Shown piece after piece: positions 29,940-53,320 of a stretch of DNA of 64,000 nt. Under the pieces are notes generated by a model that saw nothing but the letters and a program-made list of their open reading frames with translations, was not told the origin of the DNA and did not search any database. Position 1 is the stretch's first letter; each line of letters opens with the position of its first letter. The position numbers and the translations under genes were made by a program. Source of the DNA: Bacteroidota bacterium (GTDB lineage Bacteria; Bacteroidota; JABWAT01). The stretch lies in the NCBI GenBank assembly GCA_023151185.1, contig JAKLJL010000006.1, forward strand, positions 62,001-126,000. Reading direction: 5' to 3'.

Positions 29940-29994
29940 ACTAAAAAATTGATATCCGCATTCAGATAGAACCTTTACCAAAACGGGAGATAAG

Positions 29995-34261: not shown

Positions 34262-34277
34262 CCCGAGGAATGCGAGC

Positions 34278-35000
34278 ATGAAAGCAAAGTCAACCCTGCC
34301 TGAAAAGAAAACGGAAGAAAGAGTTATCCTTCAGAACCTCACTAAGCACCTGTGGGGTCTCATCGGGTACCTTAAACAAACCGGGCATGATTCAAACAAT
34401 AAAATGGCCACCGTTACAGCCACTCTTCAACTGGCAAAAATGCAAATTGGTGAAGAGGAACCGCTTGCCGGCATCCTGGATAAAGCAGGTCTGGCTGCAA
34501 AAGCTGCTGTTCAGAGTTTTAAAAAAATTCAGCAGGTTCACTCCTTTCTTTCCCCCATAACAGAAGAACTGGTTCTGAATAACCTGGTTTTATCTCTTTT
34601 TGAGGAGGATGAAACAGGTCATGATCTGATGCCAAAGCTCACGGTAACAGGTGAAGAACTCAGGGTTACCGGAGATCCGGGAATGTATTTGGCGATGATT
34701 GTTGCAGTGCGGGATGCTTCAACCCAATTGAACGGAGGAAACTCAGATCTGGTTTTTAACCTTTTAAAGGAAGGCGGTCATGCAGTTCTGAGAATGAAGT
34801 CCGGCGGATTTTCCGGGGTGGCTACTCCCTTTTCTCCTGTACAGGGAATTGAAGCGATGGAAACAGGTTCAGTTGCAGGGTTTGAACTGATGACTCTTGC
34901 CACATTAAGTAAGTTTGCAGGTGGCGGAATGGAATTTTCTGTTTCTGACCCGGGCTTTTTCCTTGAAATTCACCTGCCACTAAACCAAACAACCTTATGA
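34278..35000 (+). CDS. Degenerate histidine-kinase-like or phosphotransfer protein
   Basis: 240-residue soluble protein. Residues 33-62 (GLIGYLKQTGHDSNNKMATVTATLQLAK, cited in parts: GHDSNNKMA) align with the HisKA H box seen in its neighbours (AHDLNN, AHDFNN), so His at the HDSNN site may accept phosphate. The C-terminal part resembles an ATPase-domain fold but has no N box (N-x-x-x-N) and no DxGxG, so it probably cannot bind ATP. The shape recalls ChpT-like phosphotransferases. It lies 16 bases after one hybrid kinase gene and overlaps the next by four bases (ATGA). Confidence 0.65.
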   Translation: MKAKSTLPEKKTEERVILQNLTKHLWGLIGYLKQTGHDSNNKMATVTATLQLAKMQIGEEEPLAGILDKAGLAAKAAVQSFKKIQQVHSFLSPITEELVLNNLVLSLFEEDETGHDLMPKLTVTGEELRVTGDPGMYLAMIVAVRDASTQLNGGNSDLVFNLLKEGGHAVLRMKSGGFSGVATPFSPVQGIEAMETGSVAGFELMTLATLSKFAGGGMEFSVSDPGFFLEIHLPLNQTTL

Positions 35001-37273
35001 CCCCTCCGATTTCAATTTTAATCGTGGATGATGACCCGGTTTCCTCAATGGTACTCGATGCCGCACTTAAAAAAATGGGTTTTCAGGTTCTGGCAATTGA
35101 ACCTTCAGGGGAAGAAGCCCTTTTGTTTCTGGAGAGAAATCAGCCTGACCTGATCTTGCTGGATATTGTGCTGAAGGGTGAATTGGACGGGATTGAAGTT
35201 GGGACTCTGGTACGAAAACTGTATACCATTCCGGTTATCTTTATGACCGGGCATGATTCCAGGGATACGTTTGAACGTGCCCGGATATCCGACCCGTTTG
35301 CCTACCTGATAAAACCGGTTAGAATGCGTGAACTTGCCCTGTGTATTGAAATTGCCATCCAGCGGAAGGCAGCCGATCAGGCCCGGGCCGAACGGGAAAG
35401 AAATCAGAGCCTGATTTTGAACAGTCTTCAGGAAGGAGTTCTGTTTTTCGATGGGAATTCTGTATTAAATTACCTGAATTCTCTGGCGGCATCCCTTCTT
35501 GGTATCCGGCCGGCTGATGCAATCGGGAAGACTTTTGATGACCTCTTTATTCTGGATGGACTGAAGGAAAACCAGTTTTTCAGTAATTTATCGGCAACGG
35601 GGGTTCCGGCAGAGGGGAAGGAATCCATTCTGATTGTCAGGAAAAATGAAATCCTGCTTTCTATCTCGTTTCGTGCCACTCCGTTAATCAGTTTATCAGG
35701 GGCATTTAATGGTGTCGTATTTGCCTTTACAAAACTAAGTCTGAACCTGGATCCGGTTGAAGCCATCCGTCAGAATCTTGTCGTCTATAAATCTGTTCTG
35801 AACGGAGTCAGTGACGGAGTGATCATTTACTCGGTTACTGAAGAACCCATGATCGTAAACCGGGCTTTTAAAGAGGTTTTCCTTCCCCCGCTTTCAGGTG
35901 TTTTTGATCAGTCCTTCGACTCACTTGTCAGCCTTTGTTTACAGGTTTCGGATGGAAAATTGGACCGGGTTAAACTGTGGGCAAGAGATCAGAAAGCTAA
36001 AATCCCCCCTCTTAAAAACCGGCCGGATGGCAGGGACATTCTGATCAGAACAACTCCGATAAAAAATCAGTTTGGCGAATCAATGGCACTGATGGCGGTG
36101 TTCAATGATAACCGGTTACTGCATCTTGAAGAATCGGAACGCATCCAATCGGATAAACTGAAGGCACTTGGCCTGCTTGCCGGCGGGATAGCACATGATT
36201 TTAATAATGCGCTTGCGGCATCATCCGGAATTCTTTCTGCCCTTCGTCTGGGTTTTTCTGGTTCTGAACCGGAACTGAATCAGCTAAAGAAGGCCGAATT
36301 GATTTTAAATCATGCCGGAAGTCTGGCAAGCCGGCTGCTTGTTTTTTCGGAAGGTGGCGTTCCGGTTAAAAAGAGATGTAATATCCGGGACCTGATTGAA
36401 AGGTCTCTGGCCAGCCTTGCCGGGAAAAAAAGAGTTACTTTCACCTTCCTGACTGACGGACAAATTCCGGAAATCGAGGCTGATCCGCGGTTGCTGGAGC
36501 AGGTCTTTTACAACCTGGCGAAAAACAGTGCAGAATCCCTGACCGACCGGGTTGTGAACCTCTGGATAACGCTTTCCACTGATCCACCCTCCGGGGCAGG
36601 CAGTGATCTGGCTCAACTGGCTGACTCCCGGATGGTGATTTCTTTCCGGGATGACGGATCCGGAATTCCAGAACAGAACTTGCCTTTTATTTTTGATCCC
36701 TTTTTTACAACGAGAAAACAGGATGGAATGGGGCTGGCAGTTGCCTATTCAATCCTTCAGAAACATGGCGGAGACTTATCTGTTCACTCTGAAGAAGGGA
36801 AGGGGTCCGTTTTTACCATCCGCTTGCCCGGACTTTTACCCCATTTGAAGAAAAGTCCCGAAAATCGGGTTTATCCGGCAGATTTCAGTATGAAGCCAGT
36901 CAGGATCCTGATTCTGGAGGATGAGGAATTTCTTCAGGAAGTTTTTGAAATGGTTTTCAGAAAACTGAATTACGATCCTGTAATTGCCGGTACCGGTGAA
37001 AAGGTTCTTCAGCTCTACCAGAACTCACTGGCTGAAAACCCCTTTGACCTGGTCATTCTGGATCTGGTTGTTAAAAATGGGATGGGTGGAAAGGAAACCA
37101 TCAGCGAATTGATTAAACTGAACCCAGGGGTAAAGGCTATCGTTACCAGCGGTTATTCGAGTGATCCGGTTCTCTCTGATTTCAGGCGGTACGGATTTTC
37201 AGATGCCCTTGTAAAACCCTTTGAACTGGAAGAGGCTGATATGAAAATAAAAAGCCTGATCCGTCAATCCTGA
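34997..37273 (+). CDS. Hybrid histidine kinase with receivers at both ends
   Basis: 758-residue soluble kinase ordered receiver (5-120; ILIVDDDP and LILLDIVLKGELDG), PAS (about 135-255), second PAS (260-375), HisKA (His in GGIAHDFNNAL near 398), ATPase (N box YNLAKNSAES, G1 RDDGSGIPE, FTTRKQDGMGLAVAYS) and a C-terminal receiver (635-755; ILILEDEEF, LVILDLVVKNGMGG). No membrane segment. Having both input and output receivers suggests it relays between other kinases of this block, perhaps through the small degenerate kinase next to it. Its last 10 bases overlap the convergent NtrC-type gene tail to tail. Confidence 0.9.
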   Translation: MTPPISILIVDDDPVSSMVLDAALKKMGFQVLAIEPSGEEALLFLERNQPDLILLDIVLKGELDGIEVGTLVRKLYTIPVIFMTGHDSRDTFERARISDPFAYLIKPVRMRELALCIEIAIQRKAADQARAERERNQSLILNSLQEGVLFFDGNSVLNYLNSLAASLLGIRPADAIGKTFDDLFILDGLKENQFFSNLSATGVPAEGKESILIVRKNEILLSISFRATPLISLSGAFNGVVFAFTKLSLNLDPVEAIRQNLVVYKSVLNGVSDGVIIYSVTEEPMIVNRAFKEVFLPPLSGVFDQSFDSLVSLCLQVSDGKLDRVKLWARDQKAKIPPLKNRPDGRDILIRTTPIKNQFGESMALMAVFNDNRLLHLEESERIQSDKLKALGLLAGGIAHDFNNALAASSGILSALRLGFSGSEPELNQLKKAELILNHAGSLASRLLVFSEGGVPVKKRCNIRDLIERSLASLAGKKRVTFTFLTDGQIPEIEADPRLLEQVFYNLAKNSAESLTDRVVNLWITLSTDPPSGAGSDLAQLADSRMVISFRDDGSGIPEQNLPFIFDPFFTTRKQDGMGLAVAYSILQKHGGDLSVHSEEGKGSVFTIRLPGLLPHLKKSPENRVYPADFSMKPVRILILEDEEFLQEVFEMVFRKLNYDPVIAGTGEKVLQLYQNSLAENPFDLVILDLVVKNGMGGKETISELIKLNPGVKAIVTSGYSSDPVLSDFRRYGFSDALVKPFELEEADMKIKSLIRQS

Positions 37274-38625
37274 AGCTTTTCCTTTAACGTATTCCGGGTA
37301 ATTTTCAGCTTTTTGGCAGCAAGGGTCTTGTTTCCGTGGGTTTGCTCAAGCACATACCGGATGTATCTGGCCTGAATTTCTGCCAATGGTACAATACCTT
37401 CCGGTTGAGGTTGTTCCGGGTAAAACACTTTTTCTCCGGCGATTTTGGCCGCCTGCGGCGCCAGGTTCGGGAAATAGGCAGGTGTTACCGGATTGCCCCT
37501 GCTCAGAATTACAGCCCGTTCGATAACATTTTTAAGTTCCCTTACATTGCCGGGCCAATCGCAGGCTTCAAGAATTTGTTCAGACTCAGGTGTCAGAGAA
37601 ACCTGAAGTCTGGACTCTGCAGCGAATTGGGACAGAAAATATCTGGAGAGGAACAAAATATCTTCTTTGCGGTCACGCAGCGGAGGAATAGAAATTTCCA
37701 GAACATTCAGCCTGTGGAATAAATCTGCCCTGAATTTCCCCTCCTCAACCATTTCCTTCAGATTCCGGTTTGTGGCAGCAATTACCCTGACGTCGACCTG
37801 AATTTCGGTGGTCCCGCCCAACCGTCTGAATGACTTTGATTCAAGCGACCTGAGTAATTTGGGCTGAAGCTGAAGCGGGAGTTCCCCGATTTCATCAAGG
37901 AACAGTGTACCGCGATGGGCTTGCTCAAACAATCCATGACGGGTAGTTTTTGAATCGGTAAACGCCCCTTTTTCGCTGCCGAATAATTCAGCTTCGATCA
38001 GGCTTTCCGGTATTGCAGAACAATTGATTTTTATGAACGGACCCTGATGGCGGGGGCTGCATCTGTGAACTTCTTCTGCAATCAGTTCTTTTCCCGTTCC
38101 GGTTTCACCGGTAATCAGAATGCTGGTTTTTTCGGTATTTGCAAAAAAATGGGTTGTCTGCAGGACTTCTGCCATCAATTCAGATTTGAAAACCAAAGTC
38201 CGGCCAGGGCTGGTAGTCATTTTATTCCGGAGGGTTGCCAATTCATTTCTGACAGCAATTTCACTGCAAACAGTTTCAATTCTGGCTTTTAACTCCTCCA
38301 GTTGGACCGGTTTAACAAAATAGTCCTGGACTCCTTTCCGCATAGCCGAAATTGCAACCGATACGTCTGTATTTCCGGACATGACCCAAATGACAGAGTT
38401 TCTATTGGAATCCCGAATATCAGGTATCAGGGAAAGCCCAGAACCATCAGGTAAATTCAGATCCAGCAGGACTAGATCAAAGGGCTTTCTGTTTAAGGCA
38501 AGCCGGGCATGAAGAAGGTCAGAGGCCCCGGTAACTTCATTGTCAGAATTTAAAAATGTTTCAAGCACAAACCTGAAGTCAGCCTGATCCTCGACGATTA
38601 GAATTGAAATCCGGTTTGAGTTCAT
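37264..38625 (-). CDS. NtrC-family sigma-54-dependent response regulator
   Basis: 453-residue activator: receiver (6-120; phospho-acceptor in LVLLDLNLPDG), AAA+ domain (Walker A GETGTGKE near 173, ELFGSEKGAFTDSK near 218 as the sigma-54 contact loop, Walker B GTLFLDEIGELP near 239-250, sensor RVIAATNRNL), and a Fis-type helix-turn-helix at the C-terminus (HGNKTLAAKKLKITRNTL). The GAFTGA loop reads GAFTDS; GAFTD variants are known in the family. It is convergent with the signalling block and may receive phosphate from those hybrid kinases. No sigma-54 target promoter was found by eye. Confidence 0.92.
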   Translation of the reverse strand: MNSNRISILIVEDQADFRFVLETFLNSDNEVTGASDLLHARLALNRKPFDLVLLDLNLPDGSGLSLIPDIRDSNRNSVIWVMSGNTDVSVAISAMRKGVQDYFVKPVQLEELKARIETVCSEIAVRNELATLRNKMTTSPGRTLVFKSELMAEVLQTTHFFANTEKTSILITGETGTGKELIAEEVHRCSPRHQGPFIKINCSAIPESLIEAELFGSEKGAFTDSKTTRHGLFEQAHRGTLFLDEIGELPLQLQPKLLRSLESKSFRRLGGTTEIQVDVRVIAATNRNLKEMVEEGKFRADLFHRLNVLEISIPPLRDRKEDILFLSRYFLSQFAAESRLQVSLTPESEQILEACDWPGNVRELKNVIERAVILSRGNPVTPAYFPNLAPQAAKIAGEKVFYPEQPQPEGIVPLAEIQARYIRYVLEQTHGNKTLAAKKLKITRNTLKEKLQD

Positions 38626-38724
38626 CGGTTAGGTCCGGCACAAATAAAAAGTGAAATAAATAATTAACTGATCAGGTCACGAATGTTCTTCATAAAGATA
38701 TTTAATTAAATGCTTTTATTGGAT

Positions 38725-38732
38725 TAATTTTG
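38725..38732 (+). promoter_or_regulatory. Promoter element for the MBL-fold gene
   Basis: TAATTTTG, matching TAnnTTTG, in the AT-rich divergent region between the NtrC-type gene and the MBL hydrolase; about 90 bases before the chosen ATG. Confidence 0.35.
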
Positions 38733-38822
38733 GATAGGATCGGATCGGGAAGGTTTAAATTTAATTATTTTCCAATCGGGCACAGGGCGAAAAAAATCTG
38801 TCCGGCTGGTAAAGGAGTCAGA

Positions 38823-39608
38823 ATGCTGTCGATCACTCACATCACTACCGCCTGTATTTTACTCGAAATGGAAGGATTCCGGATTTTGACTGATCCGGTT
38901 CTGGATCCGCCCGGGAAATGGTACCATCATGGGTTCGGTGCAGTTTCAAGGAAAACGTCAGGACCTGCAGGTTCATCCCAAAGCCTGGGAACTCCTGATC
39001 TGGTTTTGATCAGCCACCATCAGCATGGAGACAACCTGGATCCTGCCGGCTGGCAGGTTGCAAAAAAAGCACCACAGATTTTTTCCACGTGTTCCGCATC
39101 CCGTAAACTTCCAGGAATTACCGGGCTGAAAGAGTGGGAATCGGTTCCGGTTTGGAAACAGGGAAATCTGATTCTGACGGTTACCGCAGTTCCGGCACAG
39201 CACCATCCGGGATGGTTGCCCGGTTTCTTTTCGGGGGATGTGACCGGATTTGTGCTGGAATTTCCTGGAAACCCAGGATTGACGGTTTATATTTCGGGTG
39301 ACACGACCTGGTTTTCGGGTATGAAGGCAATCGCAGCCCGTTTTCCTGAAGTGGACATTGCCATTTTACATGCCGGAGCAGCCGGATTCAGGTACCTGAC
39401 CGGACCTGCCCGGTATACCATGAATGCTAAGGAAATCATCCGGTGTACAGAACTGTTCAGCCCCAAGGTTATGATTCCGGTCCATTCTTCCGGCTGGAGC
39501 CATTTTCTTGAATCTGAGCAGGATTTGTACAGGAGTCTTTCCTCTGCAACCCTGCCGGGTACAAAACTTCTTTTCCCCCAACCCGGTGTTAAAACTGAAA
39601 TCTGGTGA
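38823..39608 (+). CDS. MBL-fold metal-dependent hydrolase, UlaG-like
   Basis: 261-residue metallo-beta-lactamase-fold protein. The metal motif is SHHQHGDNLD near 59-68, with Asn where the canonical HxHxDH ends in His; I recall this DN form from a UlaG-like subgroup. Other parts are a first strand THITTACILLEMEGFRILTDPVL (in pieces), ISGDTTWFSG near 158-167 and PVHSSGWSHF near 219-228. Substrate unknown. The ATG at 38823 has AAAGGAG eight bases upstream; the longer frame from 38730 starts at a TTG-type codon in the promoter region and is rejected. Convergent with the next gene, 10 bases away. Confidence 0.85.
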   Translation: MLSITHITTACILLEMEGFRILTDPVLDPPGKWYHHGFGAVSRKTSGPAGSSQSLGTPDLVLISHHQHGDNLDPAGWQVAKKAPQIFSTCSASRKLPGITGLKEWESVPVWKQGNLILTVTAVPAQHHPGWLPGFFSGDVTGFVLEFPGNPGLTVYISGDTTWFSGMKAIAARFPEVDIAILHAGAAGFRYLTGPARYTMNAKEIIRCTELFSPKVMIPVHSSGWSHFLESEQDLYRSLSSATLPGTKLLFPQPGVKTEIW

Positions 39609-39618
39609 GACTGGCTTT

Positions 39619-40764
39619 CTACCTTCCGGTTGCTTTCCGGATGGCGTCTCTGACGATTGGCTCCATCCGGGCATATCCTTCTGCATTTGGGTGGACAGCA
39701 TCAGTTCCAAGCGCCGGAAGTAACCCGTTTTTGCCATCAGTCAAGACCGGGAAATAATCCGCAAAGACAAAACCAGAGGCATCTGCATAGGCCCTGATCC
39801 GGTTGTTCAGGTTCACAATGTCTTCAGACGGATGCAGTTCCGGCTTCCATGGATAGACCGAGGCCGGTAAAATGGAGCACAAAATCACCCGGATACCGTT
39901 GGCTTTTGCAAGTTCGGCCATGGATATGAGATTCTGAAGAACCAGATCCGGACTCACCGGCCCGTTGTTCCCGGCCAGATCATTCGTTCCGGCCAGAATC
40001 ACGACTGCTGCAGGGTTTAGATTCAGGACATCCTGCCGGAATCGGACCAGCATCTGAGAAGTCGTCTGCCCGCTGATGCCCCTGTTAAGGAACCCGGTCC
40101 CGGTGAAAAAATCAGACCGCTGATATTCCCAGCCCTCGGTGATGGAATCCCCCATAAAAACAACCCGGTTTTCCCCGGGTGCCGGCCCGGACAAAGCTGC
40201 ATTGTCCTGTTGATAATATTCCGTATTTGCCCAGGATGATTTCCGGATAAAGGTAAATCCGGCAAACTCTGCCGGATACCAGGCGAAGAAAAGTGCAGCC
40301 CCGCCACCCGCCTGATAGTACTCTAACCGGATGGAATACTCCTGGCTCTTTTTCAGGGTGAGTTTTGCTTTCAGTTCCGTCAGACCCTGATCCTTCCAGC
40401 CATCCAGAAGTAAGTTTCCGTCGATGAACAGCCGGAATCCGTCATCACCGGCTGCTGTCAGCCAATAATCACCATCTGCCTCCGGACGGATCACACCCGT
40501 CCAGCGGATCGAAAAATTATCGGTTCTGAGTCCCGGGATTCCTGGAGATTTACGCCATTGGTTGAGGACCTGCTGCTCAATCCGTGAGCTGACGGGAGAA
40601 CCGGAAAGGGTTTTATTGTTGAAGTAGTCGGCTTTGAGCCCGGTGCTGTCGGTGCCGCTGTGAAGAAAGTACCGGGATTGCTGTGCCGGATTTTCTGTCT
40701 GCCCCGAAACGGTTAAGCAGGTAAAAAGTAAGCCGCCGGTGAAATGGAAAAAAGGAAGTTTCAT
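39619..40764 (-). CDS. Secreted PA14-domain / SGNH-hydrolase esterase
   Basis: 381-residue exported protein: signal peptide 1-21 (ends VSGQ), PA14 carbohydrate-binding-like domain about 40-160 (LKADYFNN, IRWTGVIRPEADGDYWLTAAGDDGFRLFIDG in parts), and a C-terminal GDSL/SGNH esterase about 195-381. Catalytic Ser207 is in FMGDSITEG, Asn in LAGTNDLAGN, and Asp355/His358 in DAVHPNAEGY. The combination points to deacetylation of extracellular polysaccharide or glycan, though no substrate can be assigned. No T9SS tail is seen, so it is probably periplasmic. Confidence 0.9.
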   Translation of the reverse strand: MKLPFFHFTGGLLFTCLTVSGQTENPAQQSRYFLHSGTDSTGLKADYFNNKTLSGSPVSSRIEQQVLNQWRKSPGIPGLRTDNFSIRWTGVIRPEADGDYWLTAAGDDGFRLFIDGNLLLDGWKDQGLTELKAKLTLKKSQEYSIRLEYYQAGGGAALFFAWYPAEFAGFTFIRKSSWANTEYYQQDNAALSGPAPGENRVVFMGDSITEGWEYQRSDFFTGTGFLNRGISGQTTSQMLVRFRQDVLNLNPAAVVILAGTNDLAGNNGPVSPDLVLQNLISMAELAKANGIRVILCSILPASVYPWKPELHPSEDIVNLNNRIRAYADASGFVFADYFPVLTDGKNGLLPALGTDAVHPNAEGYARMEPIVRDAIRKATGR

Positions 40765-42646: not shown

Positions 42647-43060
42647 ATGAAAATTCATACCACCAATTATACCAATACCTTTATTCTGGTTGCTGATGAC
42701 TGCCCGGTTGAGTCTGCCGAAGTTCCACCCCAGAAAGGAGACTCCAGATCGGTTGCCACGATTCAGTTCGAAAAGGTAGCACAAAATCCTTACCGGTATA
42801 CTTCAGATGACGTTCTGTTTTCGGTGTATGCTGAAAAACAGGATCTGACCTCTGAAGAACTGGATGCGGCCCGGGAACAGTTCTTCTCAAAAGGGCAGCC
42901 CTGCTTCCGGGCGTCCCCGCTGACCAAACGGTACGGGTGGGGAGTTCATCACGATGAGCAGGGGAAAATGGCCATTTATCCGGTGGGATCCGAAGGCTAC
43001 CTGAAGTGGTCACAGGCACCGGGAGTAAAGGTTCTGAAAGCCATGAAATCTGCAAAATAA
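42647..43060 (+). CDS. DUF6157-like protein
   Basis: 137-residue soluble protein. NTFILVADDCP near 10-20, NPYRYTSDDVLF near 46-57, REQFFSKGQPCFRASPLTKRYGWG near 76-99 (in parts) and a C-terminal KVLKAMKS match a small conserved family of unknown function that I recall as DUF6157. No catalytic motif is evident. It follows the cupin gene by 20 bases and is probably in the same operon as rsgA and the cupin gene. Confidence 0.75.
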   Translation: MKIHTTNYTNTFILVADDCPVESAEVPPQKGDSRSVATIQFEKVAQNPYRYTSDDVLFSVYAEKQDLTSEELDAAREQFFSKGQPCFRASPLTKRYGWGVHHDEQGKMAIYPVGSEGYLKWSQAPGVKVLKAMKSAK

Positions 43061-43103
43061 ATTAAATCTGAATCCGGTTTTCTCTGCCCGGGAAGGAAGG
43101 GGT

Positions 43104-43111
43104 TATCTTTG
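43104..43111 (+). promoter_or_regulatory. Promoter element of the truncated aat copy
   Basis: TATCTTTG five bases before ATG 43117, identical to the element in front of the intact aat gene. Confidence 0.5.
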
Positions 43112-43116
43112 CAGGT

Positions 43117-43368
43117 ATGGAACTGCCAGAAATTACCCCTGAACTCATCCTGAATGCCTATTGCCAGGGGATTTTCCCGATGGCCGATCCGGACACCGGC
43201 GAGATTTCCTGGTATTCCCCCGATCCGAGGGGCATTTTCCCGCTTGATGCCTATAAACCGAAACGATCCCTCCAGAATATTCTGAACCGGGGACAGTTCG
43301 AAATCAGGATTAACTCAGATTTTGAAGCCGTCATGCGGGGATGTGCTGAAAACCGGGAAACCATTTGA
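43117..43368 (+). pseudogene. aat: Truncated 5' copy of aat
   Basis: The first 82 codons of leucyl/phenylalanyl-tRNA-protein transferase, ending at codon 84 with a stop right after the break (RETI, stop). The intact gene at 48297 continues with WISEDIIDWY. From 43104 to 43362 the two copies differ at 19 of 259 bases by my hand count (about 93% identity), mostly silent and concentrated in the last 100 bases. The catalytic half is missing, so no activity is expected. It forms the left edge of a 4.9-kb accessory segment. Confidence 0.92.
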
Positions 43369-43396
43369 AAAAATATCAGGGGCATTTTAAAAATAC

Positions 43397-43421
43397 AGAG
43401 ACGCACCAGGGGCACGTCTCT
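43397..43421. repeat. Short inverted repeat
   Basis: AGAGACG and CGTCTCT arms with an 11-base loop just inside the left edge of the accessory segment. AGGGGCA occurs as a direct repeat around it (43378 and 43408). Purpose unknown; no T run of terminator type on either strand except weak TTAAAATTTT. Confidence 0.5.
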
Positions 43422-43484
43422 TAAAATTTTAAATACTAAAAAAAAATCCCACCGCTCAGCGTTCTCATCGGTAGAATATTCCAA

Positions 43485-46400
43485 TCATTTTAATAATTGA
43501 ATTTTCCCGGTTTTGACTTCGGTTCCGATTTCAACCCGGTAGAAGTACGTTCCGGAAGCCAGGTTTCGGCCATCAAACCGGAAGGCGTAATCTCCCCGCT
43601 CATACGTCCCGCTGGCCAGATCGGCAACCAACTGTCCCACCAGATTGTAAACCCGGACTTTCAGTTCCTTTGCTTCGGTCAGGCGGACGCTGATCCGGGT
43701 TTCGGGGTTGAACGGATTCGGGTAAACAGCAACCAGTTCCCTGATTTCCTCTCCGCCGGTTTCCTCTGCTTCTGATTTGCTCATCCGGACTTTGTTACCT
43801 GAGGGATCAACCACCCAGACATCCCACTTCGTCAGGTCGGGGATAAACCGGATTTCCCGGCGGGTTCCGGCTTCATCCCGGTAAACAACCAGTTCAGACG
43901 TCCCGAAAAGTTTCAGGTCATTGACCGTTTCGGTAACAAAGCCGTCACCTTTTACCGCTACCGTCCAGACACCGAGTGTGTCAATCAGGATGGAATCGAC
44001 CATGGATGGATCCAGATGAGCCGAATAGATCAGGGTATCGGTCAGTTGAACCCCCGAGATACTGAGGACAGGGATGTCCATGGAGCCGGTGGTGACCTTT
44101 GGTGCGGGAGTACCAGGCCATAAAACATCAGTGAGACCCAGCACAGATAACCCGCTTAAACTGTTTTCTGAAGGTGTAAAATCCACTTCACCTTGGAGTA
44201 ATTTTTGCGCAGATGAAGCAAACGTACTGGTACTTTGAACCCAGGACGTTCCGTCATTGAGCCACAGGTAATAGCTGTAGTTGGGAACGTAGGATGAAAC
44301 TGCCACTGAGGCTAACTTTTTTGATCCTTCGCAGGCCAGACTGATGGCCGAAAAGTCGCCGTAGGTTCCTGAAGTGGCCAGAACGGTAAAGGGCAGGGTC
44401 GATTCTGTGGTGTACCAGGCTCCGGTTCCCAGATCTTTTTTATTGGTTTGGGTGTTGGTCCTGACCAGAATCAGATTCAGATTCCCGTTTGGATCGACCG
44501 ACGAAGCCATTGAAGCAAAGGAACCGGAGGAACTGGTGGTAATCATCTTTGCAGACGACCAGGTTCCGTCTGTTTTGAGTCTATAGCCAAGAACGGATGA
44601 TCCATTTATCCAGACCACGTAAGCCAGATTACCGTTACCGGCAACCTGTATGGAAGCAGATTGCCCGGTAAGTGTTGACCAACTGCCCCAGGTAACTCCT
44701 GAACCTGTCAAGGTCCCCACCGATTTGTAGATGGTTGACCCAATTTTGGCAATTAGGGCAAGTTTTGGTGTGATGCTGTTAATCCGCACAATTTCAACAC
44801 GTCCCGAAGGGATTCCAGAAAGAGCGGGAACTGAAGAACTTGAAACAACCCCGTTGATCTCATGACCAGATGTTAGGGTTGTGGTTCCGTTATTCAGAAC
44901 CCAATACCGGTTATTGCCGTTGGCTGTTGCTGAAAAATTCTGAAGATTACTGATGGAACTGGAAACCAAAATTTCCTTCATATCAGACCCATTTTTCCGG
45001 TGCAGCCAGAGTTTGCCGTCTGAAACATACATGACCGAGGCCGTTCCGTTTTCTGATACAAACTGATTTCCCGTTACCCACCCGGTATTGAGAGATGCCA
45101 GCATAGCTTTGTAGTTGGCAGTAATGGTGGCTATTCCATTGGTTACAAGGGGTTGAGGTGCAAGTGAATTCGGATTGGTTAGTGGGTCAATATTGGTACC
45201 AGACCAATTCTGAAAAGAAAGGCAAAACACACCAAAGGATTTCATGGCATCTGCTTTGATCTGGTAGTAAGGTTTAAGAGGATCAAGATTGTTCACACGT
45301 TCATTTATAAAAATATCTTTTGCAGCAGACAGGATGTTAAAGGTGGTCTGGTCTTTGGTTTCCCAGGGATCCTGAAACCCGATACTGGTTGAAAAAGGCA
45401 GATTAATTTCCTGAATGGATCCGGAAGGAGTTAAACTGAAAAGAGGTTTCCGTTTTGATGACCTAACGGGTTGTGAAGCTAAACTTAAAAAATATTCTTT
45501 TGGTCTATAATCAACTGCCACCCCGTTCCAGTCATGGTGCTGCTCCCCGTTTGCCTGTGTATTAAACACAAATGAAGAGTAGGTTTCACCGGGTAATAAA
45601 AAGGTTGATTGATAGTCATATAGGTAATTATAGTCATTGATCGCAAATAAGTTTCCCGTAGTTCCACCATCAGCAAGACGTGTTTCAAGTTTAAAGTTAA
45701 ATGGGTTTTCATTTAACATATACCTACCATGATAAACAGTCAGATTAGCATGCATCAATTTAACCTGATCAGGACTAAAATGCTGGGGAGTCGCATTCCA
45801 GTAGGACATAATATTTTGTTTATCTGGATTGTAGTTTGACTTATTACACTGATCCATACCCATTGTTCCTTCATAATCTGCTGGCGTATCGGCTATGCCA
45901 TCGCCTGTATAAAGAGCGTTTACCTCACAACCATTCAGACCAGATTGATCTATATTCTCTTTGCCATTTTGCGTGTCAAAAGTATGCCAAAGCCCAAAAG
46001 CATGACCCAATTCATGGGGCCACCACTTACTGGCTCCATGACCCGTTAAAAAAATTCTGTTACTATATAACTGACTCAAGCCTAAACGGGATTCAAATGT
46101 ACCATCTATGGCGATTAACAGAGCATGGGTTATATAAATATTTACTGCATTGGGATTGTGTTTTCTTGCAACTATTTGAATTTCTTGTAGTTGGGGTTTC
46201 AAAACCCAAAATTCAGGAGCATTAATTGTATCAAGTGTTACAACTTCAAAATTGATTAGGCAAGGTAGAAAAGCACTTCTCATAGCATCAAGATCAAGAT
46301 TCATTTTTTCATCTGAAGTTGCAACCTCTCCATCCGAATTAACAATCCGGTAAATTGCAAGTTTTATTGTCCTGGTTTTTGTGGGTGTTTTTAAGAGATT

Positions 46401-46553
46401 GGGATCCCAAAAGGGTGTTTTACTTCCAGCCATTATTGAAAAAATTTCCAAGTTCTCTGAGCTTTTTCCACAAATTTGTGGAGGGGGAGACTGTGCATAG
46501 CCTGCAGAATTCAGACCTATAAAAAGGGTTAAAAATGCAAAACTCTTTTTCAT
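43485..46553 (-). CDS. Secreted M43-like (pappalysin) metalloprotease with T9SS sorting domain
   Basis: 1022-residue exported protein. Signal peptide 1-20 (ends GYAQ); metzincin protease domain about 40-290 with zinc motif H180-E-L-G-H-A-F-G-L-W-H190 and Met-turn NIMSYW near 240; a long middle part (490-800) of repeated beta segments with Ser/Gly-rich turns (propeller-like); and a C-terminal T9SS type A domain, last about 80 residues (VYPNPFNPETRIS ... GTYFYRVEIG). It would cross the outer membrane by T9SS and be anchored or released. The 5' two thirds are clearly more AT-rich than the sorting domain. ATG 46551-46553. Confidence 0.9.
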   Translation of the reverse strand: MKKSFAFLTLFIGLNSAGYAQSPPPQICGKSSENLEIFSIMAGSKTPFWDPNLLKTPTKTRTIKLAIYRIVNSDGEVATSDEKMNLDLDAMRSAFLPCLINFEVVTLDTINAPEFWVLKPQLQEIQIVARKHNPNAVNIYITHALLIAIDGTFESRLGLSQLYSNRIFLTGHGASKWWPHELGHAFGLWHTFDTQNGKENIDQSGLNGCEVNALYTGDGIADTPADYEGTMGMDQCNKSNYNPDKQNIMSYWNATPQHFSPDQVKLMHANLTVYHGRYMLNENPFNFKLETRLADGGTTGNLFAINDYNYLYDYQSTFLLPGETYSSFVFNTQANGEQHHDWNGVAVDYRPKEYFLSLASQPVRSSKRKPLFSLTPSGSIQEINLPFSTSIGFQDPWETKDQTTFNILSAAKDIFINERVNNLDPLKPYYQIKADAMKSFGVFCLSFQNWSGTNIDPLTNPNSLAPQPLVTNGIATITANYKAMLASLNTGWVTGNQFVSENGTASVMYVSDGKLWLHRKNGSDMKEILVSSSISNLQNFSATANGNNRYWVLNNGTTTLTSGHEINGVVSSSSVPALSGIPSGRVEIVRINSITPKLALIAKIGSTIYKSVGTLTGSGVTWGSWSTLTGQSASIQVAGNGNLAYVVWINGSSVLGYRLKTDGTWSSAKMITTSSSGSFASMASSVDPNGNLNLILVRTNTQTNKKDLGTGAWYTTESTLPFTVLATSGTYGDFSAISLACEGSKKLASVAVSSYVPNYSYYLWLNDGTSWVQSTSTFASSAQKLLQGEVDFTPSENSLSGLSVLGLTDVLWPGTPAPKVTTGSMDIPVLSISGVQLTDTLIYSAHLDPSMVDSILIDTLGVWTVAVKGDGFVTETVNDLKLFGTSELVVYRDEAGTRREIRFIPDLTKWDVWVVDPSGNKVRMSKSEAEETGGEEIRELVAVYPNPFNPETRISVRLTEAKELKVRVYNLVGQLVADLASGTYERGDYAFRFDGRNLASGTYFYRVEIGTEVKTGKIQLLK

Positions 46554-46587
46554 TGATTCGTTCCTTCTGTTTGTTTGTGTTGTTGTT

Positions 46588-47937
46588 CTATCTTCTGAGA
46601 GACCAGATTAAAGAACCCTGACCTTCACCAAAACCATATCCGACTGCGAAAACCTGATGCTTACTGACTGCAATACTGGTCAACCAGGTTGTATTCATGT
46701 TGGCAATGGAGTATTTCCTAAATGTTGAACCGTTATAATGCCAAAGTACGCCAAGTACACCGGCAAAAAAGACATCATTGATTCCAGTTCCCCGCATACC
46801 GTTGACCTGATACTGAAAAAAACCATATAAAGCATTCCTTGGAAAAACTGTTACATTTTGAATTTGATCAATTGGTTGAATGAAAATTCTTGCTTCTGAG
46901 TTAACCCAAAAAACAATATTGTCAGGAGAGTAAATTGCTGAAATTCCTCTGCCATAACCATCAAAAGCAGATGGTTTTCCGGTTTCATAAACCACTTCAA
47001 ACTGAGCACCATTTTTGCGAACCAAAACTCCAATCCCGGTTCGGCTTAAATACCCGCAAGCCCAAACTTCACCAGAGGGTGTTCCCCAGATATCCAGAAA
47101 ATCAACTTTTGTTCCGGTTTCAATAAGGTGGAACTCTGAACCATCATACCAGGTCATTGAACCATTTGACCCGGCAAGATAAAACTGGTTTTTTCGGTTT
47201 CCCCACATTTTCTGGGGCGTGCCTTGTGCTTCAGAAATAATTCCAGTTAATAGAATAACACCGTCAGGTTTAATTTTAGCATAAGCGCCGTTTTCAGTAA
47301 ATACCCATAAATTTTCACTATCATACCAGATACATCTGATAACCTGTGGTCTTGAACCTGATGGCCAAATCGGAAGTGAGAATGCAAATTTCTTCCATGT
47401 TTTACCGTTAAACATTGCAGCATTATATAAGGTTAAACCTCCATTAGGAGCAGTTGTAATATCACCCACTACCCAGACACAAGTATCGTTTACAATGGCT
47501 ACATCCAAAAGGTTTGAACCCGCACATCCAAGTGTATCCAGCTTCCAGGTATAGGCATGACTGGTCGTATCCATCGTTCTTCCTGTGACCGGGTCACTTT
47601 TCAGGAAGGTGGTTTCGGTTTTCTTCCAGACAGCTTGCCAGGTGAAGGAAGTTGAGGGTGTTAATGCAGTGTCAATCAGGGTAGTATCCGGCTGGTGGAG
47701 GGAAAAGGTTTGAATTGGTTGAGAATTCCGGGCAAGAGTCAGGGAAGCCGGGTAAGTAATCCCGGCAGTGTGGAGAGAAAGTGTTGCGGAAGTTAAATCA
47801 GTTTCCTTCACTTTCAGTATGAGACTGTCGGTTCGGTTTTCGGGTCCGGTGCTTTCAGGTTCTTTGCAGGAGGTAAAGGCAGATAACAAAACAAAACTAT
47901 AAATGGCTGGGATAAACAGGATGTAGTTTTTTTTCAT
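46588..47937 (-). CDS. Lipoprotein with Fn3-like and propeller-like parts
   Basis: 449-residue envelope lipoprotein: signal with lipobox AFTSC (Cys24), a fibronectin-III-like segment about 36-110 (SATLSLHTAG, STSFTWQAVW), then repeated blades such as NLLDVAIVNDTCVWVVGDI, VIRCIWYDSENLWVFTENG, FLDIWGTPSGEVWACGYL and VNGMRGTGINDVFFAGVLGVLWHYNG (quoted in pieces). Blades of this W-x-V/A-G type suggest a beta-propeller of unknown ligand. It is 34 bases upstream of the protease gene on the same strand, so the two form an operon and likely act together at the cell surface. Confidence 0.8.
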   Translation of the reverse strand: MKKNYILFIPAIYSFVLLSAFTSCKEPESTGPENRTDSLILKVKETDLTSATLSLHTAGITYPASLTLARNSQPIQTFSLHQPDTTLIDTALTPSTSFTWQAVWKKTETTFLKSDPVTGRTMDTTSHAYTWKLDTLGCAGSNLLDVAIVNDTCVWVVGDITTAPNGGLTLYNAAMFNGKTWKKFAFSLPIWPSGSRPQVIRCIWYDSENLWVFTENGAYAKIKPDGVILLTGIISEAQGTPQKMWGNRKNQFYLAGSNGSMTWYDGSEFHLIETGTKVDFLDIWGTPSGEVWACGYLSRTGIGVLVRKNGAQFEVVYETGKPSAFDGYGRGISAIYSPDNIVFWVNSEARIFIQPIDQIQNVTVFPRNALYGFFQYQVNGMRGTGINDVFFAGVLGVLWHYNGSTFRKYSIANMNTTWLTSIAVSKHQVFAVGYGFGEGQGSLIWSLRR

Positions 47938-48058
47938 ATTTTGAATTTGGAATCAGTGAGGATGGGTGTAATTAAACTTATTTTTATGCAAGTTAACGGA
48001 TGTCATTGGTAAATAGCAATAGACCTAATGGTATTAATATTTGTCACGAATTTAAAAT

Positions 48059-48097
48059 AGTGGTACCGCTTTTTTTCGCCATAAAAGCGGTACCACT
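48059..48097. repeat. Perfect 15-bp inverted repeat
   Basis: AGTGGTACCGCTTTT (48059-48073) and AAAAGCGGTACCACT (48083-48097) around a nine-base loop, with TTAAAATAG repeated directly outside both arms. Strong enough to be a cruciform or hairpin; the direct repeat outside suggests an inserted palindromic element. Confidence 0.8.
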
Positions 48098-48283
48098 TAA
48101 AATAGTAGGCAGGGTACCTTTTTACCGATTTTCTGAAAAAACCAACTAATCAACCCCGTTCGGGATTGATTGCATTGCGTGTAACAGCGAACCACCGGAT
48201 CCCTCGATATCAGTCAGTGGCCGTCCTTCGACTCTACTCAGGATACCGGGTTGTGAACAGTATCCATTATCCGTCGCTTTTTC

Positions 48284-48291
48284 TATCTTTG
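48284..48291 (+). promoter_or_regulatory. Promoter element of aat
   Basis: TATCTTTG ending five bases before the ATG of the intact aat gene. The transcript would start at or next to the start codon, leaving no room for a Shine-Dalgarno sequence. Confidence 0.55.
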
Positions 48292-48296
48292 CAGGT

Positions 48297-48884
48297 ATGG
48301 AACTGCCGGAAATTACCCCTGAACTCATCCTGAATGCCTATTGCCAGGGGATTTTCCCGATGGCGGACCCCGACACCGGCGAGATTTCCTGGTATTCCCC
48401 CGATCCGAGGGGCATTTTTCCGCTGGATGCCTATAAACCGAAACGGTCCCTCCGGAATATTCTGAACCGGGGACTTTTCGAGGTCCGGATAAATTCTGAT
48501 TTTGAGGCAGTCATGCGGGGATGTGCAGAAAACCGGGAAACCTGGATATCCGAAGATATTATTGACTGGTACTGCCGGATTCATCTGCTTGGCTATGCAC
48601 ATTCGGTTGAAACCTGGTTTGAAGGCCGTCTTGCCGGTGGATTGTATGGCGTTTCAATCGGAGGAGCCTTTTTCGGTGAGTCCATGTTTTCACGGCAGTC
48701 AAATGCCAGTAAAGTTGCCCTTCACTATCTCGTTACCCGCCTTCGGGAGAAGGGGTTTATCCTGCTGGATACACAGTTTATAACCGACCATCTGGAATGG
48801 ATGGGTGCTGTGGAAATCCCCAGAAAGGAGTATTTAAAACTCCTGAGCAAGGCCATCCACCTTGATGCGGACTTTATCACCTGA
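48297..48884 (+). CDS. aat: Leucyl/phenylalanyl-tRNA-protein transferase
   Basis: 195-residue cytoplasmic enzyme that adds Leu or Phe from aminoacyl-tRNA to N-terminal Lys/Arg of proteins, marking them for ClpS/ClpAP degradation. Motifs: AYCQGIFPMAD near 12-22, WYSPDPRGIFPLD near 29-41, SVETWFEGRLAGGLYGVSIGGAFFGESMF (near 103-131, in parts), LLDTQFITDHLEWMGAVEIPR near 164-184. Length is normal for this group. Probably leaderless. A broken 5' copy lies 5.2 kb upstream. Confidence 0.94.
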   Translation: MELPEITPELILNAYCQGIFPMADPDTGEISWYSPDPRGIFPLDAYKPKRSLRNILNRGLFEVRINSDFEAVMRGCAENRETWISEDIIDWYCRIHLLGYAHSVETWFEGRLAGGLYGVSIGGAFFGESMFSRQSNASKVALHYLVTRLREKGFILLDTQFITDHLEWMGAVEIPRKEYLKLLSKAIHLDADFIT

Positions 48885-48914
48885 CTCCTGGTTTTTTTTA
48901 TCTGTCCTTTTTTT

Positions 48915-48922
48915 TATTTTTG
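48915..48922 (+). promoter_or_regulatory. Promoter element of the TPR/transglutaminase gene
   Basis: TATTTTTG 33 bases before the ATG at 48956, matching TAnnTTTG. Confidence 0.45.
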
Positions 48923-48955
48923 TTGCTTTCCCGTTAACAAAATCCCGGATTTCTC

Positions 48956-51900
48956 ATGAGAATGCTTGCTGTCTTCGTTGTTCTTCTGGTCAACTGTTTT
49001 ACTGTGTTTGCCGGGCACCCGGATAGCCTTGCTGAAGCAGGGTGGAGCCTGGCCGGAAAAAATAATCTGAAAGAAGCCCAGGCTTTATTTCAGAAAGCAC
49101 TTGAACAGGATCCATCGCAGATCAGAGCCAATCTGGGCATGACTTTCATTTTCGATTTACAGAAAAAATATGATCAGGCCTGGCCCCGGTTTCAGGCAGC
49201 GGCAGAAAAATCGGGTAATCCGAATGCCTACCTGTTTGCTGCATGGTCTACGGCCAAGGTGACCAATTCCTATTCAACCGCCCAAAAAAACTTTTCTGAT
49301 TATCTTTCAGAGCTGATCAATACCGGTGATTCAACCGGTACTCTGACAGCAATGGCACGGGAGCAGTTGGGAAGGCGGGCCTTGAACCGGGGAAACTATG
49401 AACAGTCAGAATCTCATTTCAAACAGATGAATACAATCGAAAGCTGGCTTCTGGCTGGTCCTTTTGATAATACCTCCGGATCCGGTTTTGATAAAACGTA
49501 CCTTCCGGAGCAAACCTTTGATCCAAAGATGAAAACCACCGGGCAGCTTGGAATTCCGGTTTCCTGGTTCAAAGTTCCCGAAATCCGCCGGGATAAATGG
49601 GTGGACATGACCTATTACTATCCGCAGGACAATGCTGTTTTTTATGGAAACGTCTTCCTCAAATCGGTAAAAGATGAGGTTGTTCACTTAAGGGTGGGTA
49701 CTTCCGGATCGGTTAAGGCATTTGTCAATGGCAGGGAAATCATCTCGGTGGCCGACGAAAACAACAATGATCTGGATACCTATTGCGCCCGGTTTACCCT
49801 CCCTGCCGGAACAAACCGGCTGCTGATTAAGGTTGGGTATTCAGAAATCAGTTCCTGTAATTTCATGGTCCGGATTACAGATACAAAGGGGAAGCCGGTT
49901 CCGGGAATTGAACCTGTTCTTGAAGCTGATTCCTGGAATCAGTCGGTCCCGGGAGAAATTGTTCAGATACCGAATTTCTCTGAACTCTATTTCAGGCGCC
50001 AGATCAGTCAGAACCCAGACCGGCTTGAAAACTATTTGCTTCTGGCGGATGCCTGTTTGCGCAATGATAAAGCACCAGAGGCTGAACGGGTTCTGAAATC
50101 GGCATTGAAAATTGCACCGGATCAGGTTTTTCTTCTTGAAAAACTGATCGAATCCAACCAGCGGAATGAAAAGTCGGATGATAACCCGACACTGTTCGAG
50201 AAAATCGGAAAACTGTATCCTGACTACCCCGAGTATCAGGTGTATCGGTTTTACCGGGCTGTCAATAATGAAGAATATTCGGCTGCTGACGGATTTGCTG
50301 CCCGCTACGCCGACCTTTCGGGTAAAAATGAAACCTGGTATGAAATGAAGATCCGGCTCCACAGTGCAAAAAAGGAACAGGAAAAGGTCGATGAGTACAA
50401 CCGGGAAGCCTTCGGGAAATTTCCGGAAAATGAAGATTTTCTGGGAGCCGTAATTCAGAATGAATACCGGGTAAAGCAGGATTATGCCGAATGTGAACGG
50501 TTGACCAGAGAGTATCTTGAAAAACGGGTTGATCTGGATGTTCTGAATCTGCTTTCGGCCATTACACTGACCCGGCAAGACCGGGATGGGTTTAAGGAAG
50601 CCTGGGACAGAACCTTTCTGCATGAACCGGTTGCCTGCGGGCGGTACAATGCTATGGCGGATCTCTGCCTCAGAATCAAGGATTTTGAAGCTGCCGAAAA
50701 GGCGATTGACAATGCCCTCCGGATTGCACCGTTTTCTTCCGCATTCTGGAAAAGAAAGGCTGAAATTGCCCGGACACAAGGGAAAACTGAAGTTGCATCT
50801 GAGTGTTATACTTCTGCTATCATTTACGATCCGCAGGATTATGAAGTAAGGCAAAAACTCAGGGAACTGAAAGGCCTGCCTGACCTTTTCGATACGTTCC
50901 ATAAGAATAATATCGACAGCCTGATCGCTGCTGCACCGGCCGGCTCTGATTCTGAAGATGATGAAGCCCTGGTTCTTCTTGACGATACCAAGCGGGTCCT
51001 GTATGAAAACGGCGGATCTGAAGGACAGGTTGAATTGCTGTTCAAAGTCCTGAACGAAGAGGGAATTGAACGGTATAAGGAATACACGGTCAATGGAAGC
51101 GGAAACGGTGAACGGATTGATATTGATAAAGCTGTGGTCAGGAAACCTTCGGGTGATGAAATCAGGGCCGATATCAACAGCAGAACCATTGTTTTTAAAA
51201 ACCTGGAAAAAAATGACATCCTGTATATTAAATACAAACTGAAAAGTTATTACCGGGGCAGTCTTTCGGATCAAACCTGGGAACACCTTGTCTTTTCCTA
51301 TGACATCCCGGTCATCAATGTTTCGTATTCCGTTCTGTCTATGAATGACCGTCAGATTAACTGGAGAGCCATCAACCGGGATATCCAGCCCGAAAAACGA
51401 ACGGTTTCCAACGGAACAGTTTATACCTGGAAAGTTCAGAATCTGAGTCCGCTGAAAATTGAACCGGCCATGTTGCCGATATATGATGCCGGGATCGGAG
51501 TTCAGGTCAGTACCATTCCGGACTGGGAATTCATGGTGAACTGGTATGCTTCGGTAACCAAAGATAAAACCCGGGCAGATGATGATATCAGGGAGGCGGT
51601 TGCCCGCCTGATTCCCGATATACCGGGCACACCTGATACGGTTAAAGTCCGCAGGATTCATGATTTCATCAAGAAAAACATCCAGTACAGTTATGTTTCA
51701 TTCCGTCAGTCCGGATTAATCCCCCAACGGGCACGCGATGTCCTGAACACCCGGATGGGGGACTGCAAAGACATGGCAACGCTGTGTATTTCCATGCTGA
51801 CCGAAGCCGGAGTCCCCGCCTGGTACACACTGGTGAATACCGTTGACGAAGGGTTCTACAGAAGTTCACTGCCGGGACTTTATTTCAACCATTGTATTGT

Positions 51901-52696
51901 AGCAGCCCAATATGCCGGAAAACTTCATTTTCTTGACCTGACGGCAGATAACTATTCTTTGGGCGTTCTGCCCGACGGGGATCTTGGAGCACTGGCCCTG
52001 CTGATAAAACCAGGTGAAAGGACCACTTTCTATCTGCAGGAACCGGTTCCGGAACTGAACCGGATCAGCCGGATTTCCAACGGAGTTTTATCTCAGGACG
52101 GATCGGTATCCATGAAGTACGAATCTGAAAGAATGGGAATTCAGGCCGCCTACCTTCGGTCGGCATACAAAGGGAAATCGAAGGATGAACAGATTAAAAT
52201 CTACATGGAATCAAATTCGGAATATCCTCAGTCAAAAGTTAAGTCTCTGGACTTCACCGGGCTGGATTCACTGACAACGGTAGTAAAGGCCCTTTATGTT
52301 GTTGATATTCCGAATTTTGCCAAGGAAATCAGCGGATTCCGTTTGCTGACACCAGGTTGGTCAGAGTCGATTGGGTCAATGGAGTTGTTTACTGAAGAAA
52401 ACCGTGAAAATGACCTGTTTATCCAGCACTCAGGATCAGTTGAGTCCGAGAAAATAACGTTTGAACTGCCTGCCGGTATGAAACCTGCCGAGCTGATCAA
52501 GGATCAGAACCTGAAATCCCCCTTTGGTCAGTATCAGCTTCAGTTCAGGTATGAAAAAGGAAAACTGACCGGGATCCGGAAAATGAAATACCTGAAATTT
52601 TTCATTACCCCGGCCGAATATTCTGAGGCAAGAAAATTTTTCAATCAGGTCAAGGAACTGGATAAAACCCAGATTCTGCTGAAAAAAGGTAAATAA
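48956..52696 (+). CDS. Large exported TPR / DUF3857 / transglutaminase-like protein
   Basis: 1246-residue periplasmic or surface protein. Signal peptide 1-20; TPR-like helical repeats in several blocks (about 23-140, 345-640; for example AEAGWSLAGKNNLKEAQALF, AEKAIDNALRIAPFSSAFW); a beta-sandwich DUF3857-like domain about 660-860; transglutaminase-like core with Cys937 (GDCKD), His979 (FNHCIV) and Asp994 (LDLTADN), a complete Cys-His-Asp triad; and a C-terminal beta domain. Such proteins are common in Bacteroidota; reaction (protease or cross-linking) is unproven. Single gene with its own promoter and terminator. Confidence 0.85.
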   Translation: MRMLAVFVVLLVNCFTVFAGHPDSLAEAGWSLAGKNNLKEAQALFQKALEQDPSQIRANLGMTFIFDLQKKYDQAWPRFQAAAEKSGNPNAYLFAAWSTAKVTNSYSTAQKNFSDYLSELINTGDSTGTLTAMAREQLGRRALNRGNYEQSESHFKQMNTIESWLLAGPFDNTSGSGFDKTYLPEQTFDPKMKTTGQLGIPVSWFKVPEIRRDKWVDMTYYYPQDNAVFYGNVFLKSVKDEVVHLRVGTSGSVKAFVNGREIISVADENNNDLDTYCARFTLPAGTNRLLIKVGYSEISSCNFMVRITDTKGKPVPGIEPVLEADSWNQSVPGEIVQIPNFSELYFRRQISQNPDRLENYLLLADACLRNDKAPEAERVLKSALKIAPDQVFLLEKLIESNQRNEKSDDNPTLFEKIGKLYPDYPEYQVYRFYRAVNNEEYSAADGFAARYADLSGKNETWYEMKIRLHSAKKEQEKVDEYNREAFGKFPENEDFLGAVIQNEYRVKQDYAECERLTREYLEKRVDLDVLNLLSAITLTRQDRDGFKEAWDRTFLHEPVACGRYNAMADLCLRIKDFEAAEKAIDNALRIAPFSSAFWKRKAEIARTQGKTEVASECYTSAIIYDPQDYEVRQKLRELKGLPDLFDTFHKNNIDSLIAAAPAGSDSEDDEALVLLDDTKRVLYENGGSEGQVELLFKVLNEEGIERYKEYTVNGSGNGERIDIDKAVVRKPSGDEIRADINSRTIVFKNLEKNDILYIKYKLKSYYRGSLSDQTWEHLVFSYDIPVINVSYSVLSMNDRQINWRAINRDIQPEKRTVSNGTVYTWKVQNLSPLKIEPAMLPIYDAGIGVQVSTIPDWEFMVNWYASVTKDKTRADDDIREAVARLIPDIPGTPDTVKVRRIHDFIKKNIQYSYVSFRQSGLIPQRARDVLNTRMGDCKDMATLCISMLTEAGVPAWYTLVNTVDEGFYRSSLPGLYFNHCIVAAQYAGKLHFLDLTADNYSLGVLPDGDLGALALLIKPGERTTFYLQEPVPELNRISRISNGVLSQDGSVSMKYESERMGIQAAYLRSAYKGKSKDEQIKIYMESNSEYPQSKVKSLDFTGLDSLTTVVKALYVVDIPNFAKEISGFRLLTPGWSESIGSMELFTEENRENDLFIQHSGSVESEKITFELPAGMKPAELIKDQNLKSPFGQYQLQFRYEKGKLTGIRKMKYLKFFITPAEYSEARKFFNQVKELDKTQILLKKGK

Positions 52697-52746: not shown

Positions 52747-53130
52747 TTATCTGGTTTTAGCTTGACCGGTGCCGGTACAAACTCCGGTTCCAATGCCTTT
52801 GCCTGAACCTTTACTGCCTTTACCGGCCCCGTTTTTAGATCCTTTCGATCCGGATCCCCGGTTTCCTTTCTGACCGGAACCGGCATTGTCATTCACTCCG
52901 TCGCCGTTGGCGTCAACAAAGCCTTTGCCCGATTTTACCCCGGTGTAATCCGGATCCTGACCATTGGGGATGCCGTCTCCGTCAGCATCGGGAGCATTAT
53001 CGTTGAATCCGTCGCCATTGGCATCAACAAACCGCGGGCCGTGGGTGACCGGTGCAGATTGGGCGTTTACCGTAGAAGCAGCGAAGAGGAAAAGAGCTGC
53101 AAGGGTGAGTAGAGTTGAGAAGCGTTTCAT
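52747..53130 (-). CDS. Exported calcium-loop protein with Gly-rich tail (paralog 1)
   Basis: 127-residue exported protein. Signal peptide 1-23 (ends VNAQ). Then three Asp-rich calcium-binding loops: FVDANGDGFNDNAPDADGDG (about 32-51, quoted to twenty residues), IPNGQDPDY and FVDANGDGVNDNAG, of the thrombospondin-3/EF-hand-like DxNxDG type. The last 50 residues are a low-complexity Gly/Ser/Lys tail. Start is the ATG at 53128-53130; a longer frame of 14 codons is rejected. A paralog lies at 57061. Function unknown; calcium-dependent folding at the cell surface is the natural guess. Confidence 0.8.
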   Translation of the reverse strand: MKRFSTLLTLAALFLFAASTVNAQSAPVTHGPRFVDANGDGFNDNAPDADGDGIPNGQDPDYTGVKSGKGFVDANGDGVNDNAGSGQKGNRGSGSKGSKNGAGKGSKGSGKGIGTGVCTGTGQAKTR

Positions 53131-53320
53131 TGTCGTATCCTTTCGTTTGAGTTTTGCCCTGATGTGGATCATCAGGTTCTGGCTGGTCCTTATTCAACCG
53201 CCGTGCCAAAAAAGAATACTGCTTTGGATAAGGGTATTTAACCGTATAAAATATAACAGTTTAGGTTCTTGAAATTAAATTTCGGCAGGGTGATTAACCC
53301 GTGAAAGTGGGGAAATAAGT

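Follow-up and report, generated by a model that had tools for sequence, protein, structure and literature searches.

In the stretch of DNA analysed here (the window; 64,000 nucleotides of a Bacteroidota genome), the housekeeping gene aat, which encodes leucyl/phenylalanyl-tRNA-protein transferase, occurs as an intact copy and, ~5 kb upstream of it, as a broken stub, with two surface-protein genes intervening. The two copies diverged while both were functional, before the stub died, and the ancestral comM-aat upstream sequence sits at the intact copy, not at the stub. An origin of the copies in two related strains is favoured, and we consider it probable that strain versions of the comM-aat site were joined through one homologous and one illegitimate junction. 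On this reading the arrangement, though well preserved, belongs to a known class of event, ordinary imprecise recombination, and represents no new system.

A broken and an intact copy of aat

A BLAST comparison identified a direct repeat of 259 nt at 43104-43362 and 48284-48542 (19 mismatches, 92.7% identity, 382 bits), bearing out the duplication of 259 bases of aat at ~93% identity that a preliminary description of the window had reported. It is the sole such pair in the 64-kb window and in ~500 kb sampled from the source genome, G000 (contigs C24 and C25 whole, C26 and C11 in part; assembly of 3.74 Mb in 27 contigs, 97.7% complete, 0.09% contamination), and therefore not a product of chance. 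The second copy of the repeat (plus strand) is in frame with the remainder of aat (48297-48884, plus strand), whose 195-aa product matches TIGR00667 (198 bits) and PF03588 (225 bits). The left, broken copy (43104-43362, plus strand) holds codons 1-82 preceded by 13 bp of upstream sequence; its frame enters unrelated sequence after codon 82 and ends at a TGA (43366-43368), leaving an open reading frame of 83 aa (43117-43368).

The repeat had been described as including the aat promoter, which holds for the 13 bp before the ATG (TATCTTTGCAGGT) and fails farther upstream, where the two sequences are unrelated. The stub is flanked by foreign sequence on both sides and lacks the 3′ two thirds of aat as well as the ancestral upstream sequence. 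At the breakpoint the copies share 15 identical bp; the longest word common to both is at most 56 nt, and the sequence contains no N.

The ancestral comM-aat site

An aat gene was found in 29 of the 30 other genomes of the phylum, in exactly one copy in each of the 29. In both congeners, G001 and G002 (70% and 77% Aat identity to the window protein, respectively), comM lies immediately upstream of aat; the uninterrupted locus to be looked for in relatives is thus present, and neither congener carries an insertion at the same aat target. The nearest genome compared is ~75% identical at aat at the nucleotide level, and neither parental version was seen alone among the genomes compared. In the window, comM (18701-20233, plus strand; YifB/ComM family AAA ATPase, TIGR00368, 664 bits), the ancestral left neighbour of aat and single-copy in G000, stops at 20233, and the intact aat begins only at 48297. 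The ancestral order is thus disrupted over 28 kb, not 5 kb, by a chemotaxis/signalling block, the stub and the surface-gene pair, after which aat follows. The extent first given to the accessory segment is accordingly right for the 4,921 bp between the copies, but the unusual stretch is larger, reaching from comM to the intact gene.

The block between comM and the stub (20237-43103; ~23 kb) encodes, according to Pfam, a SnoaL-like protein, an AraC regulator, a CheB/MCP/CheA/CheW/CheR chemotaxis and signalling cluster, a sigma-54 regulator, a GDSL lipase, RsgA, a cupin and DUF6157. Across 20234-40200, only weak, scattered matches were obtained in three family members. Scans of proteins from the segment and from the main window genes revealed neither transposase nor integrase domains, and an Rfam scan of 42900-49000 returned no match.

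Leaving out the shared 13 bp, the upstream alignment to G001 scores 50 for the intact copy and 18 for the stub, compared with 28 for the best window tile; the short intergenic region of G002 keeps the score with that genome alone from reaching significance. At the intact copy, BLAST matches start 26 bp (G001) and 19 bp (G002) ahead of the repeat, and the ancestral aat promoter region alignable with both congeners (48258-48283, plus strand) is found before this copy only. Farther upstream, a hairpin with TCAACCCCGTTSGGG (48148-48171) also lies between comM and aat in G001 and G002, and at one other place among 246 loci (247 sequences including the window, 2.48 Mb). The intergenic sequence 47959-48150 resembles its counterparts with p = 0.02 for G001, a match that is only suggestive, and p = 0.25 for G002; apart from the shared hairpin, this similarity was left out of the argument.

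Divergence of the two copies

Between the copies 18 codons have changed, 15 of them synonymously (dN 0.019, dS 0.319, dN/dS 0.06). Had the stub been neutral since the split, ~30 nonsynonymous differences would be expected, compared with the 3-4 observed (P = 4e-9). At most ~0.3-0.35 of the divergence can be neutral, so that the stub has been free of selection for no more than about a third of the time since the split. The neutral-rate divergence of the broken copy that a recent tandem duplication implies is therefore not seen. With so low a dN/dS and so few nonsynonymous changes, the copies must have separated as working genes; simple duplication followed by decay is consequently out, and two related strains or long-lived tandem copies remain. 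Two strains are the simpler reading, since no relative has a second aat copy.

The distances to the relatives carry no such signal. Over 246 positions, the two copies show 59 versus 63 differences from G001 and 59 versus 61 from G002. They are equally distant, so no polarity can be derived from these numbers, and the grouping of the copies with the species tree is uninformative as to which one is resident. A concentration of changes toward the breakpoint had also been claimed; it is marginal, with 13 of the 18 changed codons in the second half of the repeat (p = 0.05 in a one-sided test; p = 0.02 when mean position is permuted). Among the stub changes whose polarity is reliable, two alter an amino acid, at codons 60 and 63 near the breakpoint.

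Taken against the preliminary proposal of an insertion from a related strain, these results uphold the two-strain origin (dN/dS 0.06, a single aat in every relative, no integrase or transposase) and leave its polarity, in which the 5′ end of the intact copy is new and the stub native, unsupported: it is the intact copy that has the ancestral upstream sequence (50 vs 18) and the hairpin, while the stub is foreign on both sides. Either aat copy could be the import.

The lipoprotein-M43 module

The segment between the copies (43363-48283; 4,921 bp) contains two genes only, both on the minus strand, and agrees with its earlier characterisation as carrying surface-protein genes and no recombinase. 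The first gene encodes a lipoprotein of 449 aa (46588-47937; lipobox AFTSC) with a conserved N-terminal 150 aa and a variable C-terminal domain. The C-terminal part was modelled as beta-propeller-like, with YCF48 as the best fold match (mean pLDDT 67.8; TM-score 0.72, target-normalised); a sequence search for a solved relative found none. The second gene encodes a secreted M43 (pappalysin-type) metallopeptidase of 1022 aa with a T9SS type A tail (43485-46553; PF05572, E 1.4e-5; PF18962, E 7e-10; TIGR04183), which in comparison with its paralogs is variable in its N-terminal half and conserved in its C-terminal half.

Beyond the peptidase gene lies a terminator-like hairpin (43397-43421, minus strand; 11 pairs, T-rich tail), and the illegitimate junction (43363-43396, joint at 43362/43363) is where aat codon 82 meets the sequence beyond this terminator. 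The joint is 27-34 bp past the terminator, and its junction words are unique in the sampled genome. The hairpin and 3′ flank (43390-43465) recur after an unrelated T9SS gene at 58.5 kb of contig C11 in G000, so sharing extends to the 3′ flanks of secreted-protein genes. At the other end, module homology stops at 47958/47959: DNA matches to contigs C14 and C16 of G002 both end at 47958. The module promoter region common to the paralogs on G000:C25, G002:C14 and G001:C73 is absent at the window copy.

Further copies of the module are located at G000:C25:56.5-61.0 kb (L136 8553-13032), G001:C35 (L137 7476-11902) and G002:C14 (L138 7819-12550). In the window (43485-47937) and these three copies the lipoprotein gene always precedes the peptidase gene, and both point the same way; the end of G001 contig C73 encodes a protein closely related to the lipoprotein (85% protein identity). 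Identity is high at the outer ends (70-90% to most copies over lipoprotein residues 1-150; 70-96% over peptidase residues 851-1022) and low inside, at ~10-50% over much of the length. The conserved outer arms correspond to the lipoprotein N-terminus and the T9SS half of the peptidase, the variable inner halves to the propeller and catalytic domains. Compared with the C25 copy, the peptidase gene is 82-98% identical in nucleotides at residues 481-600 and 841-1022 and 54-64% identical between them. This blocky pattern is what would be expected from repeated homologous exchange, and the mosaic structure of secreted-protease genes in the genus likewise suggests that such exchange occurs.

The C25 and G001 C35 peptidase genes (L136 and L137) share a block of 96% nucleotide identity (92% at third positions) at residues ~481-520. 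Core genes of the two species are ~75% identical, but the highest-scoring core-gene windows, in argG, reach this same 96%; the block is therefore only a lead toward interspecies exchange. In G000, an orphan T9SS tail of 48 codons (C26:110032-110175; L147 ~9033-9175, minus strand) is 90% identical to the tail of the window peptidase; it adjoins a lipoprotein paralog and is apparently the remnant of another module copy. Three lipoprotein paralogs stand in tandem at G001:C99:7960-12043 (L152).

None of the other module copies examined has a flanking gene duplication, and the scar at aat thus belongs to one event. The same arrangement, suggested as something to seek at other segments, did not reappear: ~500 kb of G000 held no second pair of stub and intact gene. 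The paralog loci without flanking duplications also speak against a self-targeting integration habit of the segment. Viral contigs and plasmids, considered as carriers, gave no match to the module lipoprotein.

Origin of the arrangement

In the history that we consider probable, two strain versions of the comM-aat junction would have been fused end to end. One would have had comM, the 23-kb chemotaxis block and aat, with the joint 13 bp ahead of its start codon; the second would have carried the inverted lipoprotein-M43 module, the ancestral intergenic region and aat. A piece of DNA from one strain would have been integrated into the other by homologous recombination at one end, within aat or within comM and the genes to its left, and by an illegitimate joint at the opposite end, at 43362/43363, in aat codon 82 and beside the peptidase terminator. 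One aat would thereby have stayed whole and functional, and 82 codons of the other would have been left as a dead stub. Both the derivation of the second copy from a different strain and the succession of steps are inferred.

Low dN/dS would be explained equally well if aat had been duplicated in tandem and both paralogs had worked for long, until the left copy was destroyed by later insertions of the block in front of it and the module within it. Such a history requires no transfer of aat itself, but it needs two separate insertions, with the upstream sequence replaced to -13 and two thirds of the left copy deleted, and none of the 29 other phylum genomes with a match has two aat copies; we regard it as unlikely. 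That the contig instead merges two co-occurring strains into a fusion present in no cell would put both site versions side by side, and strain mixtures at ~93% identity are common in metagenome bins. Against such a chimera, the joint at 43362/43363 lies in non-homologous sequence with unique flanking words and offers no overlap to misjoin, there is no N and no word above 56 nt common to the copies, and the contamination estimate is 0.09%, which together make it quite unlikely.

The same orientation of the direct repeat, and the reliably polarised amino-acid changes of the stub at codons 60 and 63, near the breakpoint, would fit a partial duplication of aat in place, followed by decay of the stub and insertion of the surface genes in between; yet with 3-4 nonsynonymous against 15 synonymous changes a neutral stub is rejected (P = 4e-9), duplication then decay is excluded on that count, and this course of events is very improbable. 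The least probable history is site-specific integration of a small element at an attachment site in aat, with the gene restored by the element's own 5′ end. The 15 identical bp at the breakpoint and the intact gene afterward are as in gene-restoring integrations, but no integrase, which an integrase-mediated island would carry, was found in the segment or the scanned window proteins, the other module copies lack flanking gene duplications, and the module lipoprotein was not found on viral contigs or plasmids. Nor does the segment resemble an insertion sequence or composite transposon, for which a transposase and inverted repeats at the segment ends were sought and not found; a target duplication would be far shorter than the 259 nt repeated here, whose two copies have moreover diverged. 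Finally, the segment may belong to a dispersed, recombinase-free exchange system of the genus, in which homologous recombination in the arms would exchange matching inner halves as pairs, from locus to locus and from species to species, with the aat stub as debris left when one copy reached a new site. We consider this broader proposal doubtful.

Fusion of two strain versions, the preferred reading, would fall among known events. Homology is present at one end only, with the aat repeat on one side and unrelated sequences meeting at 43362/43363, and this anatomy is the signature class of homology-facilitated illegitimate recombination (HFIR) or, alternatively, of a circularised fragment integrated by a single crossover. 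HFIR has been described in S. pneumoniae, A. baylyi and P. stutzeri and in E. coli conjugation; its joints show microhomology of 3-10 bp, and recipient DNA is usually deleted along with the event (PMC3240628). The aat locus shares with it one homologous and one illegitimate junction, the lack of a dedicated recombinase and foreign genes beside a homologous anchor; unlike the published products, which usually delete recipient DNA, it duplicates part of a gene. HFIR has also been proposed for the stepwise displacement of T6SS effector-immunity modules in Vibrio cholerae, where an incoming module is likewise anchored by shared sequence and a remnant of the older gene persists beside it (PMC5361080). 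In that system, however, old immunity genes remain conserved and a single locus undergoes the event repeatedly (PMC5361080), whereas at aat what is left is a dead piece of a housekeeping gene and recurrence was not found. Merodiploids of S. pneumoniae also contain partial duplications of chromosomal genes, in that case acquired by transformation (PMC3784515), but these are large tandem duplications formed by unequal crossover between repeats, whereas here 259 bp flank unrelated genes. Porphyromonas gingivalis offers a parallel in Bacteroidota surface proteins that form strain mosaics via DNA exchange, through allelic exchange and domain rearrangement (PMC5266723); it differs in that variants of the same surface genes are exchanged, compared with a whole two-gene module at a new place and a housekeeping stub here. 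G000 encodes ComEC, two DprA-family genes and ComM, but ComEC and DprA families are also present in most control genomes, E. coli included, and are too widespread for this set to prove competence.

The aat locus is a legible record of accessory surface genes settling beside a housekeeping gene without an integrase. The housekeeping gene stays intact, and the other strain's version leaves a fragment as a scar; as the scar keeps the synonymous signature of a working gene, the fusion is dated after the divergence of the two versions. A stub accompanied by an intact gene, with a dN/dS well below 1, can serve as a search rule for such events elsewhere. The dispersed lipoprotein-M43 module, conserved at its ends and variable in the middle, may merit separate study.

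Other observations in the window

A TPR/transglutaminase gene (48956-52696) lies between aat and a gene for a 141-aa protein (52747-53172). It is absent from this place in G001 and G002, making aat variable on both sides; G002 has a CorA-like gene in the corresponding position. To the left of comM, argG (15350-16615) is 88-90% identical to its congener counterparts, compared with 72-75% for its neighbours, and a 91-bp intergenic repeat is present in three tandem copies of 95-98% identity at 11456-11728.
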